Virus record (IMG/VR): IMGVR_UViG_3300009481_002631
Coordinates: 1-31,135 of that record
Direction: 5' to 3' (one strand)
Length of the DNA stretch: 31,135 bases
From: a virus
A program made the translations under genes and the position numbers. The first letter of the stretch is position 1. Each line of letters begins with the position of its first letter. Positions 5,878-17,175 of this stretch are shown in pieces. Below the pieces are notes generated by a model. That model was not told the DNA's origin. It worked only from the letters and a program-made list of their open reading frames with translations, and did no database searches.

Positions 5878-7002
5878 CTATTTATTTTTACAACATTTTT
5901 TACCTTGTAGCTTTTTTAGCTTATTCTGGAGAGCAACTATTTCAGATTCAAGGTCTTTTTCGATTGGCTTTTCAGGCTCACTACCCCAAGTATCGTTGAA
6001 GAACTGTTCGGATACATTTAGCTCACCAATGAAATGTCTCCTAAGTGGGGTAGGATCTAAACCCAATTCTTTAAATTCGTAAATATAGTTTTTGAGCTTT
6101 TGTTCTGTAGACACTCCATACTGCACGCCCTCTGGTCTTCCAAATCTATGTATCCACTTCAGGAAGGGAAGGCAAACACACTTTCTTCCGGCTTGCCTGT
6201 ATTTTTCGTGTATGTAGCATTCTTCTCCGCCAAATCCTGACTGGTCTTCGTTGAATTTCAACCAAGAATTTTTTCTGGTAAGAAAGAGTCCTAAGCCTTG
6301 GGCGAAAATCTCAAAAGGCTTTTCCTTGGCGTCAAAACCTATTCTGTCAAAACCTTCTGATGAAAGCTTGCCCTCGTGTCCAGCGTGATTTATGTCAGAC
6401 GGAAAGTTTCTCTCACAGTATCCACACTTCTTTAATTCCTGCTGAGTATCTAATGATACAAACTTGCATTTTTTACCTTCTGGGACTACGGAGAAGTTAA
6501 AGGCTTCACATACGCAACGCCAAGCAGTGCCCCATCTGCCCCACATGCCTCCTCCCCACTCATCGTTAAAGTGAGTGTAGATTTCTCTCATGTTATCAAA
6601 GACTAATGGACCAGAGTATAAGTCTTCAGACTTTGAGTTATAGTTTATAAACTGTAGTAATTTATCTAGTGTGTCTACTACTGGACAAAGGAGTATGTGA
6701 CAATCCATCACCATTACAAAATTAGTAGTGGCCTCTTCAATTATCTTGTTTCTAGTACAAGAAGTGCCCTGTTTCTCATCCAGATCAACAACCCGTACCA
6801 TTCCTCTGTGCTTTGCGGCAAAATTCTTGACAGCCTTTGCGTGGGGGCAACTGCTGTTATTTTCCACAATCAAAAATTCTATCTGGGAAAGTAAATCCCT
6901 CCTTAGATTAAAGGCTAGCTCCTTGATTATGTCCTGAATAGTAAAGAATACTCCGTGGTAATCAGAGTAATGAGCCATCCCAATCGTCAATGTCTTTTCC
7001 AT
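5878..7002 (-). CDS. GT2-family glycosyltransferase (GalNAc-transferase-like), 374 aa
   Basis: The N-terminal GT-A fold has beta strands LTIGMAHYSD and IEFLIVENNS, then QGTSCTRNKIIEEA, and the metal-binding DxH-type motif in VMVMDCHILL (near residue 100). The C-terminal half carries GLGLFLTRKNSW, then GFGGEECYIHEKYRQAG and WIHRFGRPEG, matching the acceptor-side GGEE motif region of polypeptide GalNAc-transferase-like GT2 enzymes. An insert has C-x2-C-x9-H-x2-H (CGYCERN...NHAGHE), a possible zinc site. The C-terminus is a short Lys-rich coiled coil ending KKCCKNK. An AGGAGAA site sits 5 nt before the ATG, and a late-promoter-like motif lies 35 nt upstream. It lies between the giant fibre and the Thr-linker Cys-rich protein, so virion glycosylation is a reasonable inference; host glycan modification is the alternative. 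Donor and acceptor cannot be read from sequence. Confidence 0.85.
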   Translation of the reverse strand: MEKTLTIGMAHYSDYHGVFFTIQDIIKELAFNLRRDLLSQIEFLIVENNSSCPHAKAVKNFAAKHRGMVRVVDLDEKQGTSCTRNKIIEEATTNFVMVMDCHILLCPVVDTLDKLLQFINYNSKSEDLYSGPLVFDNMREIYTHFNDEWGGGMWGRWGTAWRCVCEAFNFSVVPEGKKCKFVSLDTQQELKKCGYCERNFPSDINHAGHEGKLSSEGFDRIGFDAKEKPFEIFAQGLGLFLTRKNSWLKFNEDQSGFGGEECYIHEKYRQAGRKCVCLPFLKWIHRFGRPEGVQYGVSTEQKLKNYIYEFKELGLDPTPLRRHFIGELNVSEQFFNDTWGSEPEKPIEKDLESEIVALQNKLKKLQGKKCCKNK

Positions 7003-7068: not shown

Positions 7069-10000
7069 TTAATAGTATCCATATGATCCGCTTGGGTCTC
7101 CAGAACCACTTGGCTCTCCAGTTGTTGAGCCTCCAGAGCCACTTGGGTCTCCAGAACCACTTGGTTCTCCTCCGCCACTAGAGTAGGAGCTTGGTTGAAC
7201 GGTGAGGTCGGGACATGAGATATCCTCACATGACACGCCTTCGTGCCACAGTGCCTCTTGTGCATCTGGGTAAGACATGCAGGTGCTTTCAGTTACTTCA
7301 GAGTTACAGAAATATATGTATTCACCACCTAGTGAATAGTCTGTGGCATAACAACAAGCTCCAGTTGGATCGGATGGACCAGAGCCTCCACCGCCGGGGT
7401 CGGATGTTGTGGTTGGTGAAGAGGTGGTTGTGCATGAACCACATTCGCACGGAGAAACATGGTTATCTGTGCAAGTAGAGAGGCTAAAAAAGCCTTGATG
7501 CCACCCACGATATTCGTAACCGCTCGCATTGGTGCCCTGTGCCTTGTCTTTACACTCCTGCTCAGTCAAGGAATAACCAAGACTAGATATCTCTCCTCCG
7601 CTTTCGTCATACTTGCATACACAGCATATGCCTGCGTTTTCTGATCTACAGTTTAAACTAGCGACGGTACCGTCGTCAGCATCAGGATTTAACTCATTGA
7701 GCAGACTTTCAGCAGGCCCAGTGGTTGAGCCAAGCCAACCGGGTAAACATTCGCAACCAGTGTCGCATGTACTCCACGGGTAATTTGTTGTGGTGTCTAT
7801 GAAAATACCGTCAGTTTCATGTAGATCTATATTTAGGGAAGATAGTACTGACGCATCGGCGCTGGATAAGCTGTACGGGGTATGATGCCACCTACCGTTA
7901 GTGTAAATGTAATTACAAGTACCGGTACAGTCTCCAACGCCGCCGCCACCCGGACCTTCGGGGTCGATACCGACGCCGGGATCAGGATCGGGGCCGGGAC
8001 CGGGATCGGGATCGGGATCAGGGCCGGGATCGGGATCGGGGTCAGGGCCGCCTCCGCCGCCTCCGCCGCCTCCGCCGCCTCCGCCGCCTCCGCCGCCTCC
8101 GCCGCCGCCCATGCCGCCGCCGTGGCACGCAGTTCCTACTCCATCAGCAACGTCATCGCAGGTTTGACCTTGATTGAAAGAACCACCGAGGGCGTCACAT
8201 AACGCCTGTGTCATCATATTGCACGCGCTCTCAAGCGGCGCACCGGCACCGCCAAAAGTGTTTATGCAGCAGGCCCATTCTTCTTCACCCGGAGGACCAT
8301 CGTCACCGCAATCCTCTCCGTGCGTGTCTACGCAAATAGAGTGTTCGGTACTCCCCGGATGGAATGAAAGGAATTTGTATTCGTCGATGGCATCTGCTCG
8401 TGCACGACACTCATTCTCGGAGTCTTCGAGTCCGTGGGAAGATACGTCGCCGTTGATGAGACCGCCGGTTCCGTCTGGATCACCCTTACAAATACAGCAA
8501 ATCCCCTCTTCATCAACCCCACAACGTTCGGGGCAGTGGATGGTGTTACATTTGCTTCCAGCCCCATAAAATTTACCATTTTTCTTATCTTTGCATTCGT
8601 TTTCTGTTAAATTTTCGCATACGGTCGATTCGATCAAAGGCCACGGAAGCAAAGGTGATCGCTGACACCAACAGCAAGCCCCTTTATTATCTGGCTCTGC
8701 GGTTGTTGTTGGTATAGCTTTATTGCAGGGATCATCATTACAGTCTGTTCCAGCACCACCCCAAACTCCTCCGAGAAGAAAACGGTCATCGCATTCAGCT
8801 TTGGTAACGACTTCACATTCGCATCTAGCACCGGGGTCGTCGAGTGTTGGTGCTATGCAATCTGGATAAGGATCTGCTGCGCTACGCCCGTAACAGCATC
8901 GCCCCAGCTCATCATCTCCATCGCAAAGTGCTCCTTCTCCACCACTAGCTACGTCGTCACATGTTTTGCCTTCATGAAAGGTTCCATCGAGTTCGTTCAT
9001 ACAAGTGGCGTCGTTGGTGTGAAAACATTTGCCTTCCATATAAGAATCCACGCCTGTACAGCAAGCCCAAATCCACGCATTGCACCAAAGCCACCGATCA
9101 GTGATTTTCTTGTAGTCTGGTATGGTACGATGGATTGCGCTGCTACCGTCTGGACAGTTAGCGCAACATCCGGCTGACGCAGGTACACTTATGGCTTCGT
9201 TGACCGGACGTGTGCCAGCTGCGTCGGTCATTGTTTCAGATGTTGGAGAACAGCAGTCAACACCGCCACAGGCGTTATCTGAATTCCACTCCATCATCCC
9301 CCACTGACCCTCCTCTTGAAACCAGCAGTCTTTATTCTCTTGACACGTAGAGAGGCCATTATCGCACTCTTGGCATATATCGAACCCGTCCGGACAACAG
9401 CAGCAGCAACCCGCTTTCTCTTCACAGACGACCGACTGTGTATCTCCGTCATCGTTGCAACACTTCAGAACTGTTCTTATGATACCACCTGCCCCATCAT
9501 CATCACCATGAGGGGCTTTTAGTTTAACACACTCTCCTTGTGGGTCACAGCCGTCTCTTACATCATTGTCTGAACACGGTGGGGTTAAGCATTCATCGCA
9601 CTGGGGTTCTTCTGTAGTTGTGGTAGTTCCACAACAAAAGCAACCGGCAGCGGTGCCTCCATCGCTACATGTAAGCTTATCTGCTATCAATTCAGGCTGT
9701 GTATCGCAGGCAGATTGAGCACTTACTTGGAAATTTAAACCACATTCTCCTTGAACCGCGCCATTATCGAGAAGTTTTTTCCATTTTATCTTGGATGTTG
9801 CCGGTTCTCCGGGGTCGCAAGACATTGCACCTGTCCAGTTTCCATTCATCGACGGTATGTCGACATTTAAATCACACAGTATTTCCTCTGTTAACCAATC
9901 ACCATTAGCTTCATACCGCATCGTATCATTACATCTGTTGCCGACTTCTGCCTCTGACTTTCTGCCATCAGCCTTGAAGAATAGGTTAATCGTTGGATCG

Positions 10001-11175
10001 GGGTCACAGCAATCATCGGCGTCATTAACTGAGGTAACTGTAATGTCTACTGACTCTGGGCAACAGCAGGGTACACAAGCATCATCACCAGCTTGTGAGC
10101 ACGGAACGGCTAGTGGCGATCCACCAAGTGCCTCGCACGTATCAGGATCAAGGTCAGAGCGACAATCACCGTCTAGGCAACAGCCTAACGGTTCTGCCGT
10201 GGTGGTGGTGGTTGGGCAAGGCTCTGTCGCGCAGAGAACATCTTTGTGCCATTTATTATGGGGGAAGCCGCTACCTTCCGCCGCGCACTGAGCATACGTC
10301 TTGCTGTCTTGGCACCAATATCCACCCTCGACACCTGCCGTGCAGCAAGCTCCGACTGGGGCCACTGTTGTTGTAGTAGTATTGGGACATTGGTTGCATC
10401 TGAATGTTTGTCTGGCTGAAACCACATTACTGCGATCAGGCTCAGACATCTGGTTTTTGCAGCAATCAACCTCACTAACGTCTCTTCCGCATGACGTGTG
10501 TACCGCACTTACACAGTCAAGTAGAGTGTCACTGGAATCGTAGCAGCATAATCTCATAAATGTGCAATTATGAAATAACAAGTCATTGACAAAGTATAAA
10601 TGGTTTCCATCTATGCCTAAGTCAAATAAATCTGTGTCGGGATCTGCTTCTTTGAACTCTATGGAGCGTACTTGTGAAGCGCCTTCTGGCGTGTTGATTA
10701 AATCGCCCACTCGTAGCTCACCAACAAAGTCGATGTCAGTGTATCTGGCTCTGGATGACTCTACATCACAAGACTTTATACCTCTGGATGTAAAAATAGG
10801 GTGATCGTCAGAGAAGAAATAATCACTACCATTTATTGAGACTAGTCTTCTGCCGCCAAGTTTAGTTCTTTCTAAGTGTAGTACCGTATTAAAATTATCC
10901 CAAGTGGTCTTTACTTTATCACCAATTGTGATATCAGATATCTTTTTTGGTCCGTCTTGCGAAATGACAATAGAATCACCAATAAAGCAAGTAACGGTAC
11001 AATTAGTTTGTCCGCAGGTCTGGTCAGGATAAAACTTTCCGCAAGGCAAGCTCAGACAGTCTCCTTCACTGATGTTATCTGTGCATAGCCGATCCGCAGT
11101 TACGCATCCGTAGCAGCAAGACCCTACTGGTGGTGGGGGAGGAGTAACGCCATCGCATTGGCAGCACTGAGTCAT
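7069..11175 (-). CDS. Giant Cys-rich modular virion protein with embedded mini-intein, 1368 aa
   Basis: About ten modules start with G-x-CC (GSCCYGC, GACCTAG, GRCCYGR, GACCWCQ, GICCICK, GACCYAT) and usually continue with further cysteines and a 'F..G..C....C' ending. Thr/Pro-rich linkers (NTTTTTVAP, PTTTTTAEP, GTTTTTEEP) join several of them. Residues 63-203 form a Hint/intein domain inserted between the first two modules. A poly-Gly run followed by an Asp-Pro/Gly-Pro tract lies around residues 1020-1067, and the C-terminus is a PSGSG repeat ending GYY. There is no signal peptide or membrane span. The gene lies between fibre genes, so a structural, possibly fibrous and disulphide-linked or metal-binding virion protein is inferred. 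After splicing it would be 1227 aa. I do not recognise the full-length family. Confidence 0.8.
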   Translation of the reverse strand: MTQCCQCDGVTPPPPPVGSCCYGCVTADRLCTDNISEGDCLSLPCGKFYPDQTCGQTNCTVTCFIGDSIVISQDGPKKISDITIGDKVKTTWDNFNTVLHLERTKLGGRRLVSINGSDYFFSDDHPIFTSRGIKSCDVESSRARYTDIDFVGELRVGDLINTPEGASQVRSIEFKEADPDTDLFDLGIDGNHLYFVNDLLFHNCTFMRLCCYDSSDTLLDCVSAVHTSCGRDVSEVDCCKNQMSEPDRSNVVSARQTFRCNQCPNTTTTTVAPVGACCTAGVEGGYWCQDSKTYAQCAAEGSGFPHNKWHKDVLCATEPCPTTTTTAEPLGCCLDGDCRSDLDPDTCEALGGSPLAVPCSQAGDDACVPCCCPESVDITVTSVNDADDCCDPDPTINLFFKADGRKSEAEVGNRCNDTMRYEANGDWLTEEILCDLNVDIPSMNGNWTGAMSCDPGEPATSKIKWKKLLDNGAVQGECGLNFQVSAQSACDTQPELIADKLTCSDGGTAAGCFCCGTTTTTEEPQCDECLTPPCSDNDVRDGCDPQGECVKLKAPHGDDDGAGGIIRTVLKCCNDDGDTQSVVCEEKAGCCCCCPDGFDICQECDNGLSTCQENKDCWFQEEGQWGMMEWNSDNACGGVDCCSPTSETMTDAAGTRPVNEAISVPASAGCCANCPDGSSAIHRTIPDYKKITDRWLWCNAWIWACCTGVDSYMEGKCFHTNDATCMNELDGTFHEGKTCDDVASGGEGALCDGDDELGRCCYGRSAADPYPDCIAPTLDDPGARCECEVVTKAECDDRFLLGGVWGGAGTDCNDDPCNKAIPTTTAEPDNKGACCWCQRSPLLPWPLIESTVCENLTENECKDKKNGKFYGAGSKCNTIHCPERCGVDEEGICCICKGDPDGTGGLINGDVSSHGLEDSENECRARADAIDEYKFLSFHPGSTEHSICVDTHGEDCGDDGPPGEEEWACCINTFGGAGAPLESACNMMTQALCDALGGSFNQGQTCDDVADGVGTACHGGGMGGGGGGGGGGGGGGGGGGGGGPDPDPDPGPDPDPDPGPGPDPDPGVGIDPEGPGGGGVGDCTGTCNYIYTNGRWHHTPYSLSSADASVLSSLNIDLHETDGIFIDTTTNYPWSTCDTGCECLPGWLGSTTGPAESLLNELNPDADDGTVASLNCRSENAGICCVCKYDESGGEISSLGYSLTEQECKDKAQGTNASGYEYRGWHQGFFSLSTCTDNHVSPCECGSCTTTSSPTTTSDPGGGGSGPSDPTGACCYATDYSLGGEYIYFCNSEVTESTCMSYPDAQEALWHEGVSCEDISCPDLTVQPSSYSSGGGEPSGSGDPSGSGGSTTGEPSGSGDPSGSYGYY
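7974..8119 (-). repeat. Low-complexity tract: poly-Gly then Asp-Pro/Gly-Pro repeats
   Basis: Within the Cys-rich gene, tandem GGCGGA-type hexamers encode an uninterrupted run of more than 20 glycines. This is followed by CCCGATCCC-type units encoding DPDPDPGP repeats. The GC content is much higher than in the flanking genes. It is a flexible-to-stiff linker in the protein and a likely site of replication slippage. Confidence 0.85.
10567..10989 (-). other. Mini-intein / Hint self-splicing domain inside the Cys-rich protein (141 aa)
   Basis: The domain begins with Cys63 in block A (CFIGDSIV, then DGPKKISDITIGDKV). Block B is FSDDHPIFTSRG, where His125 is the conserved histidine and Ser takes the place of the usual Thr in TxxH. 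The C-terminal blocks are TDLFDLGIDGNHLYFVN followed by LLFHN|C, giving the penultimate His202, Asn203 and the +1 nucleophile Cys204. At 141 aa it has no room for a homing endonuclease. All residues expected for class 1 protein splicing are visible. Splicing would join GQTNCTVT to CTFMRLCC. It could instead be a bacterial-intein-like (BIL) domain that mainly cleaves. The assignment to the Hint superfamily is firm; splicing activity is inferred. Confidence 0.88.
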
Positions 11176-16167: not shown

Positions 16168-17175
16168 TTAGAACGAGCCAAGAATAACTCTTCTATTGTC
16201 AAGAACACCAAAGCCAAGTTCAGCAAAGCCGTAGTAACCAGCTCTCTGTTGACGGTGCAGAGTAGGATCTTCAAAGACCTCTACATTCTGCTTCATTGGC
16301 ATGATGAAGCTATCATTAGCTCCTTGGTCAATACCAACGACCAGCTCAAGGTCGGCACCTTGAACAGAACCACCAAGACCGTCGCTGAAGAACGTCTGGT
16401 ATTCCTGACCTTCTCCAAGCTCATCGAGATCATGCAAGTTCACACCAAAAATACGTGTGATCGGAGCGCCGCCTTCGCTAGCGGTATAGATCTCTCTACG
16501 GGTTACTTCATCAATCTGATCCAGACCCCAGTTGCGAACATCTTCCAGAGCTTCTGGAGAAACGTAGATGTCTGTCAGACGACCACGATTGGCAGATCCA
16601 GTGTTACCGCCAGCATTACGGCGCATAACAGTCTGCATCAAGGATACCAATCTCTTGCTGAACATTCCAGCCGTCGCGTCACCGTCATAAACCAAAATAT
16701 TACGGTCAACACCAGCAGCAAGAATAGTATGCCATCCGTCGTCATTCATCTTTTTGACGAATCCGGCTTCAAGCACTTGCATAGCGCGGCCTACAATATC
16801 CCAACGAGCCTCTCTAGCATATCGAAGCAAGTAATCAATGCTACTTGTGATGCTATAGGTTGGAATCATGACATAGTCGCTTTCGACCGCACGCTCTGGT
16901 ACGCGACCATGACCCGGATTGGTGTAAGCTACGTGCTCACCCTCAAGTCCCGGAGAAATCAAGTCGAGCGGATACTCAGTGGAGGCTCCCGGCTCAACAT
17001 TGATGGTTTCAAAAATATTCCCGAGAATATTACCAACGAGAACACCCTTACGGAGGGGAAGTTCAAGAGCCTTGGCAAACTCTCTTTGGGCAGCGTAAGC
17101 GACATTCTGATCGCTGTCGCCCGATTTTTTAAGCAATGAAATGAATTCATCACTAGGTCTTTCTGTGAATGACAT
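16168..17175 (-). CDS. Major capsid protein, 335 aa (HK97-fold inferred)
   Basis: Position and content identify it. It follows the terminase, portal, protease/scaffold and decoration genes, and a strong terminator follows it. The N-terminal ~45 residues are helical (FISLLKKSGDSDQNVAYAAQ). The middle has VESDYVMIPTYSITSSIDYL and GRAMQVLEAGFVKKMNDDGW, then GRLTDIYVSPEALEDVRN and a C-terminal beta region ending RRVILGSF. Length and order fit HK97-like capsid proteins without a long N-terminal delta domain, which agrees with a separate scaffold. Sequence similarity alone does not prove the fold. An AAAGGAGAT site precedes the ATG. It should be the most abundant virion protein. Confidence 0.85.
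   Translation of the reverse strand: MSFTERPSDEFISLLKKSGDSDQNVAYAAQREFAKALELPLRKGVLVGNILGNIFETINVEPGASTEYPLDLISPGLEGEHVAYTNPGHGRVPERAVESDYVMIPTYSITSSIDYLLRYAREARWDIVGRAMQVLEAGFVKKMNDDGWHTILAAGVDRNILVYDGDATAGMFSKRLVSLMQTVMRRNAGGNTGSANRGRLTDIYVSPEALEDVRNWGLDQIDEVTRREIYTASEGGAPITRIFGVNLHDLDELGEGQEYQTFFSDGLGGSVQGADLELVVGIDQGANDSFIMPMKQNVEVFEDPTLHRQQRAGYYGFAELGFGVLDNRRVILGSF

Follow-up and report, generated by a model that had tools for sequence, protein, structure and literature searches.

A candidate mini-intein in a Cys-rich modular protein from the structural gene cluster of uncultured tailed phages

The DNA analyzed here (the window) comprises the whole of one 31 kb IMG/VR virus record, IMGVR_UViG_3300009481_002631 (31,135 nucleotides). 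Its minus strand encodes a modular Cys-rich protein into which a domain with similarity to Hint domains is inserted. The features of this locus are as follows.

7069..11175, minus strand: host ORF (from the translation), Cys-rich modular protein of 1368 aa, syntenic in the related phages examined
10990..11175, minus strand: N-extein, residues 1-62, with the MTQCCQCDG leader and the first Cys module, Thr at position -1
10567..10989, minus strand: Hint/mini-intein domain, residues 63-203, 141 aa, without an endonuclease insertion
10987..10989, minus strand: Cys63 (intein Cys1), putative N-terminal splice nucleophile, invariant in the aligned Hint homologs
10801..10812, minus strand: block B motif S122-D-D-H125 (S/T-x-x-H), with Asp-His-Pro invariant in the Hints of Cys-rich proteins
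10567..10629, minus strand: block F/G, LFDLGIDGNHLYFVNDLLFHN, with Asp185, His192, the penultimate His202 and Asn203, as aligned with gp41-1
10564..10566, minus strand: Cys204, putative +1 nucleophile of the C-extein, Cys in 11/11 distinct Hint-bearing genes
7072..10566, minus strand: C-extein, residues 204-1368, starting with CTFMRLCC and continuing with further Cys modules and Thr-rich linkers

Outside the insert, Cys makes up ~10% of the product of the 1368-aa ORF, and its modules open with G-x-CC and are often separated by Thr-rich linkers. A DPDPDP/GPDPDP stretch, preceded by a long run of Gly residues, is also present in the C-extein (window ~7880-8080, minus strand; protein residues ~1035-1100). 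The Hint domain occupies a variable linker between two Cys modules, a site with no conserved motif. Relatives compared in full share a gene order that comprises a 487-aa gene, a 167-aa virion gene, the putative major capsid protein, a head gene, two fibre-like genes, the Cys-rich gene, a glycosyltransferase and a long fibre-like gene, and it is this gene position that suggests the presence of the Cys-rich protein in the virion. The glycosyltransferase belongs to family 2 (window 5878-7002, minus strand); its gene lies directly downstream of the one for the Thr-rich Cys protein, also in those related loci that extend far enough, and we speculate that the enzyme may glycosylate the Thr-rich linkers.

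The segment 10567-10989 translates without stops into 141 residues (CFIGDSIV...DLLFHN), with His125 placed within SDDHP and the domain closing on His202-Asn203, followed by Cys204. The residues that characterize class 1 inteins (C63, S-D-D-H125, H202-N203 and C204) were found in the window and also in its homologs, with Ser122 at the block B position that is usually Thr in inteins. The Hint stretch contains only two Cys residues, Cys63 included. Mini-inteins by definition are devoid of a homing endonuclease, and the Hints of this family, with 141-144 aa, leave no space to house one. The GC content is lower in the Hint (0.35-0.38) than in the extein (0.48-0.51); we considered this as a sign of foreign origin and set it aside, as the Cys/Thr/Gly/Pro-rich extein biases the codons.

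A phmmer search of the PDB sequences reported the gp41-1 intein as the best match (E-value 1.3e-6), with an alignment that closes on the same His-Asn, and we regard the similarity as more than a chance one. A profile built from three sequences matched the Clostridium BIL domain (2e-4). Among the Pfam families, Hint_2 (1.3e-5), Vint, Hint, PT-HINT and Intein_splicing were matched, all under their curated cut-offs, so that a standard annotation pass could miss the domain; an NCBIfam search gave nothing useful. AlphaFold, supplied with residues 55-215 and 13 aligned sequences, returned a mostly beta model (pLDDT 87.2, pTM 0.81) with low confidence only at the extreme ends. The best Foldseek matches of this model were Tetrahymena BIL2, gp41-1 (2e-8) and Clostridium BIL (6e-8), together with many DnaB, RecA and other inteins, and the VIA comparison gave Z-scores of 16.7 for Tetrahymena BIL2, 15.2 over 123 residues for gp41-1 and 14.8 for Clostridium BIL. 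On the strength of the model, we confidently predict that 10567-10989 encodes a Hint fold.

These results bear on the preliminary description of the locus, which had proposed a 141-residue Hint domain running from Cys63 to His202-Asn203, followed by Cys204, and had called for searches of Hint/intein profiles and for structure prediction. The translation, the PDB sequence match and the AlphaFold model agree on the domain and its limits; the Hint fold was indeed predicted (AlphaFold, Foldseek, VIA), and the Pfam Hint models do match, though below the curated cut-offs. Its further proposals, namely a complete set of splicing residues, a Cys-rich host protein in a structural gene cluster and an insertion between two Cys modules, are supported by the sequence and the homologs, by the ORF and the gene order, and by the location of the insert in the variable linker, respectively.

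IMG/VR scans with the full protein, the N-terminal module, the Hint and the capsid protein were used to gather relatives. The Hint is present in 11 distinct genes (the window, L001, L003, L021, L056, L073, L080, L086, L163, L164 and L169) and missing from 7 of the 18 related genes examined (L004, L005, L007, L008, L076, L096 and the more distant L123); L002 is a near-duplicate of L001 and L006 a duplicate of L007. In the syntenic L005, module 1 is joined directly to module 2 (CAQITC-PDAEPVV-CCRYD), with neither a Hint nor the +1 Cys. The linker of L005 differs in length and sequence, hence the insert-free homolog has continuous flanks around an empty site that is not residue-exact. The preliminary description had regarded Hint-free homologs without an intact flank as evidence against an intein; in L005 the domain is absent and both flanks are intact. 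Most other Hint-free genes have Thr-rich linkers at the corresponding place, and the C-exteins of the related genes differ strongly in length and module content.

Searches with the full-length protein against annotated phage records gave no match, and no relatives emerged from GTDB genome contigs queried with the Hint alignment and the N-terminal module. The capsid protein found no close match among isolates, only Bacillus phage G with 20% identity. The phages concerned form a widespread group without a close isolate. The assignment of the putative major capsid protein (window 16168-17175, minus strand) follows from the order of the genes and from a weak similarity to the major head protein of phage G. 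The best 80 of at least 598 IMG/VR stretches carry this protein at 85-98% identity, while the fibre-like proteins that neighbor the capsid gene fall to 37-50%.

In a tree of five neighboring proteins we found two main clades, each with Hint-bearing and Hint-free members, and these main groups recur in the Hint tree, where some of the branches have modest support. Over 28 pairs, which are not independent so that r is descriptive, the identity of the Hint correlates with that of the flanking genes, closely for the fibre-like, head and capsid proteins (spk887, r = 0.92; spk538, 0.89; head172, 0.86; mcp, 0.85) and less so for the 167-aa protein (o167, 0.52). Because the Hint tracks the neighboring structural genes in this way, the element appears to be old, to have passed mainly by vertical descent and to have been lost repeatedly, and a recent horizontal arrival was rejected, the divergence of the Hint matching that of the flanking genes; exchange within the phage group may also have occurred. 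Counted on the neighbor-protein tree, the presence pattern fits ~4 gains or 5 losses, and while parsimony does not decide between these, the congruence of the Hint and phage trees favors losses. In the two computable pairs dN (0.29 and 0.41) is far below dS (3.3 and 1.8), a qualitative statement only, as synonymous sites are saturated in the others. The deep Hint tree is weakly supported, with one long branch misplaced, and for this reason we make no claim as to an origin from enzyme inteins or from structural-type Hints.

Among the Hint-bearing phages the exteins diverge, whereas the Hint keeps 48-72% identity to that of the window. All 11 distinct genes have Cys1, the His of block B, the penultimate His, the Asn and the +1 Cys, and position -1 is Thr in ten of them and Ser in one; these genes are related, hence their agreement does not amount to 11 independent observations. 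In L080 the Hint starts at residue 216, behind extra modules, and yet it has Thr at -1 and Cys at +1. As a Cys might be expected by chance in such Cys-rich proteins, we counted Cys six residues before CC in CC modules away from the junction (n = 71): it occurs in 1 of these 71 background modules versus 5/5 Hint-bearing genes of that set, and it is absent from L005. The +1 Cys goes with the Hint, which is the best sequence evidence that Cys204 serves splicing, although part of its conservation could be structural, Cys being common in the exteins. The same data bear on the possibility that the Hint is an inactive structural insert, which folds without reacting and is displayed as part of the protein. 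The loss of the block F His in some members (His192 is replaced by Asn in L001, L073 and L169) and the Ser for Thr in block B would agree with this, but over a long divergence the catalytic residues and those at the two junctions rank with the best-conserved positions, and an inert insert needs none of them; we regard this explanation as highly improbable.

We consider it likely that the Hint is a cis-splicing class 1 mini-intein, devoid of a homing endonuclease, old and mainly vertically inherited in uncultured tailed phages. Class 1 inteins act by an N-S acyl shift, transthioesterification, Asn cyclization and an S-N shift. In the window protein, Cys63 would attack the carbonyl of Thr62 (N-S acyl shift), the thioester would pass to Cys204 (transthioesterification), Asn203 would cyclize with the help of His202, and the S-N shift would give a normal peptide bond, joining the Cys-rich parts as ...NCTVT-CTFMRLCC... 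in a mature protein of predicted length 1227 aa. The catalytic parts are all present; we infer from them that the Hint is spliced out of the Cys-rich protein, and the timing of this reaction and the presence of its product in the virion are proposed on the same footing. What speaks against a mini-intein is the hypervariable host site, typical of BIL domains (PMC7765530), the closest relatives outside the group (L022-L035), which end with HN followed by Lys or Glu and thus have no +1 nucleophile, the Asn in place of the block F His in the three members named above, and the Pfam scores below the curated cut-offs.

The chief rival of splicing is BIL-type autoprocessing, in which the Hint would cleave at one or both ends or hand the N-terminal thioester to another nucleophile, so that several forms of the Cys-rich protein would arise in place of one spliced product. 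According to PMC7765530 and its reference 69, A-type BIL domains cleave without ligating and have no C-flanking nucleophile. The host is hypervariable and module-shuffled, a known BIL setting, and the variation of the C-exteins in length and module content agrees with the non-conserved hosts of A-type BILs; moreover, the best structural match is Tetrahymena BIL2, Clostridium BIL is also close, and the nearest outgroup Hints reside in phage structural-type proteins without a +1 nucleophile. However, A-type BILs have no conserved +1 nucleophile, and here the +1 Cys accompanies every distinct Hint and disappears at the empty site of L005; with Cys1, His-Asn and Cys+1 all in place, standard splicing is to be expected. 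The site of the window Hint resembles that of BIL domains, while its splice residues are of the intein type, and BIL-type processing seems to us unlikely.

Splicing could also, as the preliminary description suggested, be gated by redox state or assembly, so that the N-terminal Cys module is joined only in a reducing cytoplasm or at a given assembly step. Both nucleophiles are Cys residues among many others, the Cys at -4 of the window, L001 and L073 could pair with Cys63, and there is a precedent for a redox-trapped intein (Callahan et al. 2011, as cited in PMC7156551). The nearest upstream Cys, however, is found at varying spacing (-4, -5 or -7) in different members, and the 7 Hint-free genes indicate that such control is not essential; we give little credence to this gating. 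With similarly low expectation, we speculate that the element is a domesticated, non-homing phage intein whose splicing belongs to the maturation of a virion protein. The N-terminal Cys module would then be attached only while the protein is in the reducing cytoplasm of the host, ahead of disulfide formation, either as a checkpoint or to create a Cys-rich junction that is out of reach of the unspliced form.

Comparison with known systems places the mini-intein candidate close to the gp41-1 type phage inteins (PDB 6qaz, 6riz), with which it shares the Hint fold, the block B His, the HN ending and a similar size (128-residue chain versus 141 aa). The gp41-1 intein is naturally split, with a DNA helicase as its host and Ser as its +1 residue, whereas the window intein is continuous, has Cys at +1 and resides in a Cys-rich modular protein. 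A-type BIL domains such as that of Clostridium thermocellum (2lwy) are similar in the fold, the HN ending and the variable non-conserved host, but differ from the window gene family at the +1 position. Hedgehog autoprocessing domains combine a C-terminal Hint with a sterol-recognition region and lack an HN followed by a nucleophile; here HN is followed by Cys and then by more than 1100 residues of Cys modules. The terminase, helicase and RNR inteins of phages (mycobacteriophages, phiCbK, Mic1) are likewise phage-borne Hint domains with splice residues, some of them patchy among relatives (PMC5050341, PMC3706429, PMC3556154, PMC7156551), but they occur in enzymes, often in active-site motifs and often with endonucleases, while the window Hint, which has no endonuclease, is inserted into a linker of a protein from the structural cluster. 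A literature search of partial coverage revealed no described intein in a Cys-rich virion protein.

Location in a conserved motif of an essential protein is typical of inteins without defining them, and the window Hint lies in a variable linker instead. The usual view of inteins is that of selfish elements which stay in conserved enzyme sites since imprecise loss there is lethal. The window intein has no visible homing function, resides in a fast-evolving linker and diverges at the pace of its neighbor genes; the splice residues are retained, and the element as a whole was lost on several occasions (or regained). Its persistence in such a linker offers a natural setting for testing whether inteins can be retained because they are of use. 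Variable structural proteins are commonly regarded as the setting of BIL domains, and the occurrence there of Hints with intein-type splice residues also makes the border between inteins and BILs less clear than the usual division suggests.

Virion-type proteins with a Hint domain are already known; the present case is set apart by having, all together, the intein-type residues, a site in a variable Cys-rich linker and a long retention by vertical descent. In Erwinia phage pEa_SNUABM_32 a protein annotated as virion structural contains a Hint, but with HN/T (the slash marks a boundary of the Hint) and a C-extein of 10 aa, and the structural-type proteins L022-L035 have HN/K or HN/E. The tail-type proteins of DUF4815/PHROG 358 (L171-L178), which come from unrelated phages, contain C/C...HN/C Hints with complete splice residues that resemble the window Hint in HN/C, in an unrelated host protein. 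Among predicted viral structures there are also proteins of uncultured phages whose names refer to Hint, collagen or fibronectin domains. In L022-L030 (e.g. L022:5001-5438 onward) the HN/K end is immediately followed by a second Hint-like segment, CF[IL]KGTL...DLGDEV. The DUF4815 tail-type protein of L171:1-4557 (IMGVR_UViG_3300025429_000031) has three tandem Hints at its C-terminal end, the first two ending with HN/C and the third without an HN end. L175:3001-3489 and L176:3001-3477 have a Hint (GHC/C...HN/CC) inside the DUF4815/PHROG 358 tail-type protein, and the homolog of the L175 protein in Ochrobactrum phage vB_OspM_OC aligns on both flanks and has no Hint. The Hint of L038:5001-5402 belongs to an RNR-like ORF; its match contains two in-frame stops and may represent an intein that has decayed or is split.
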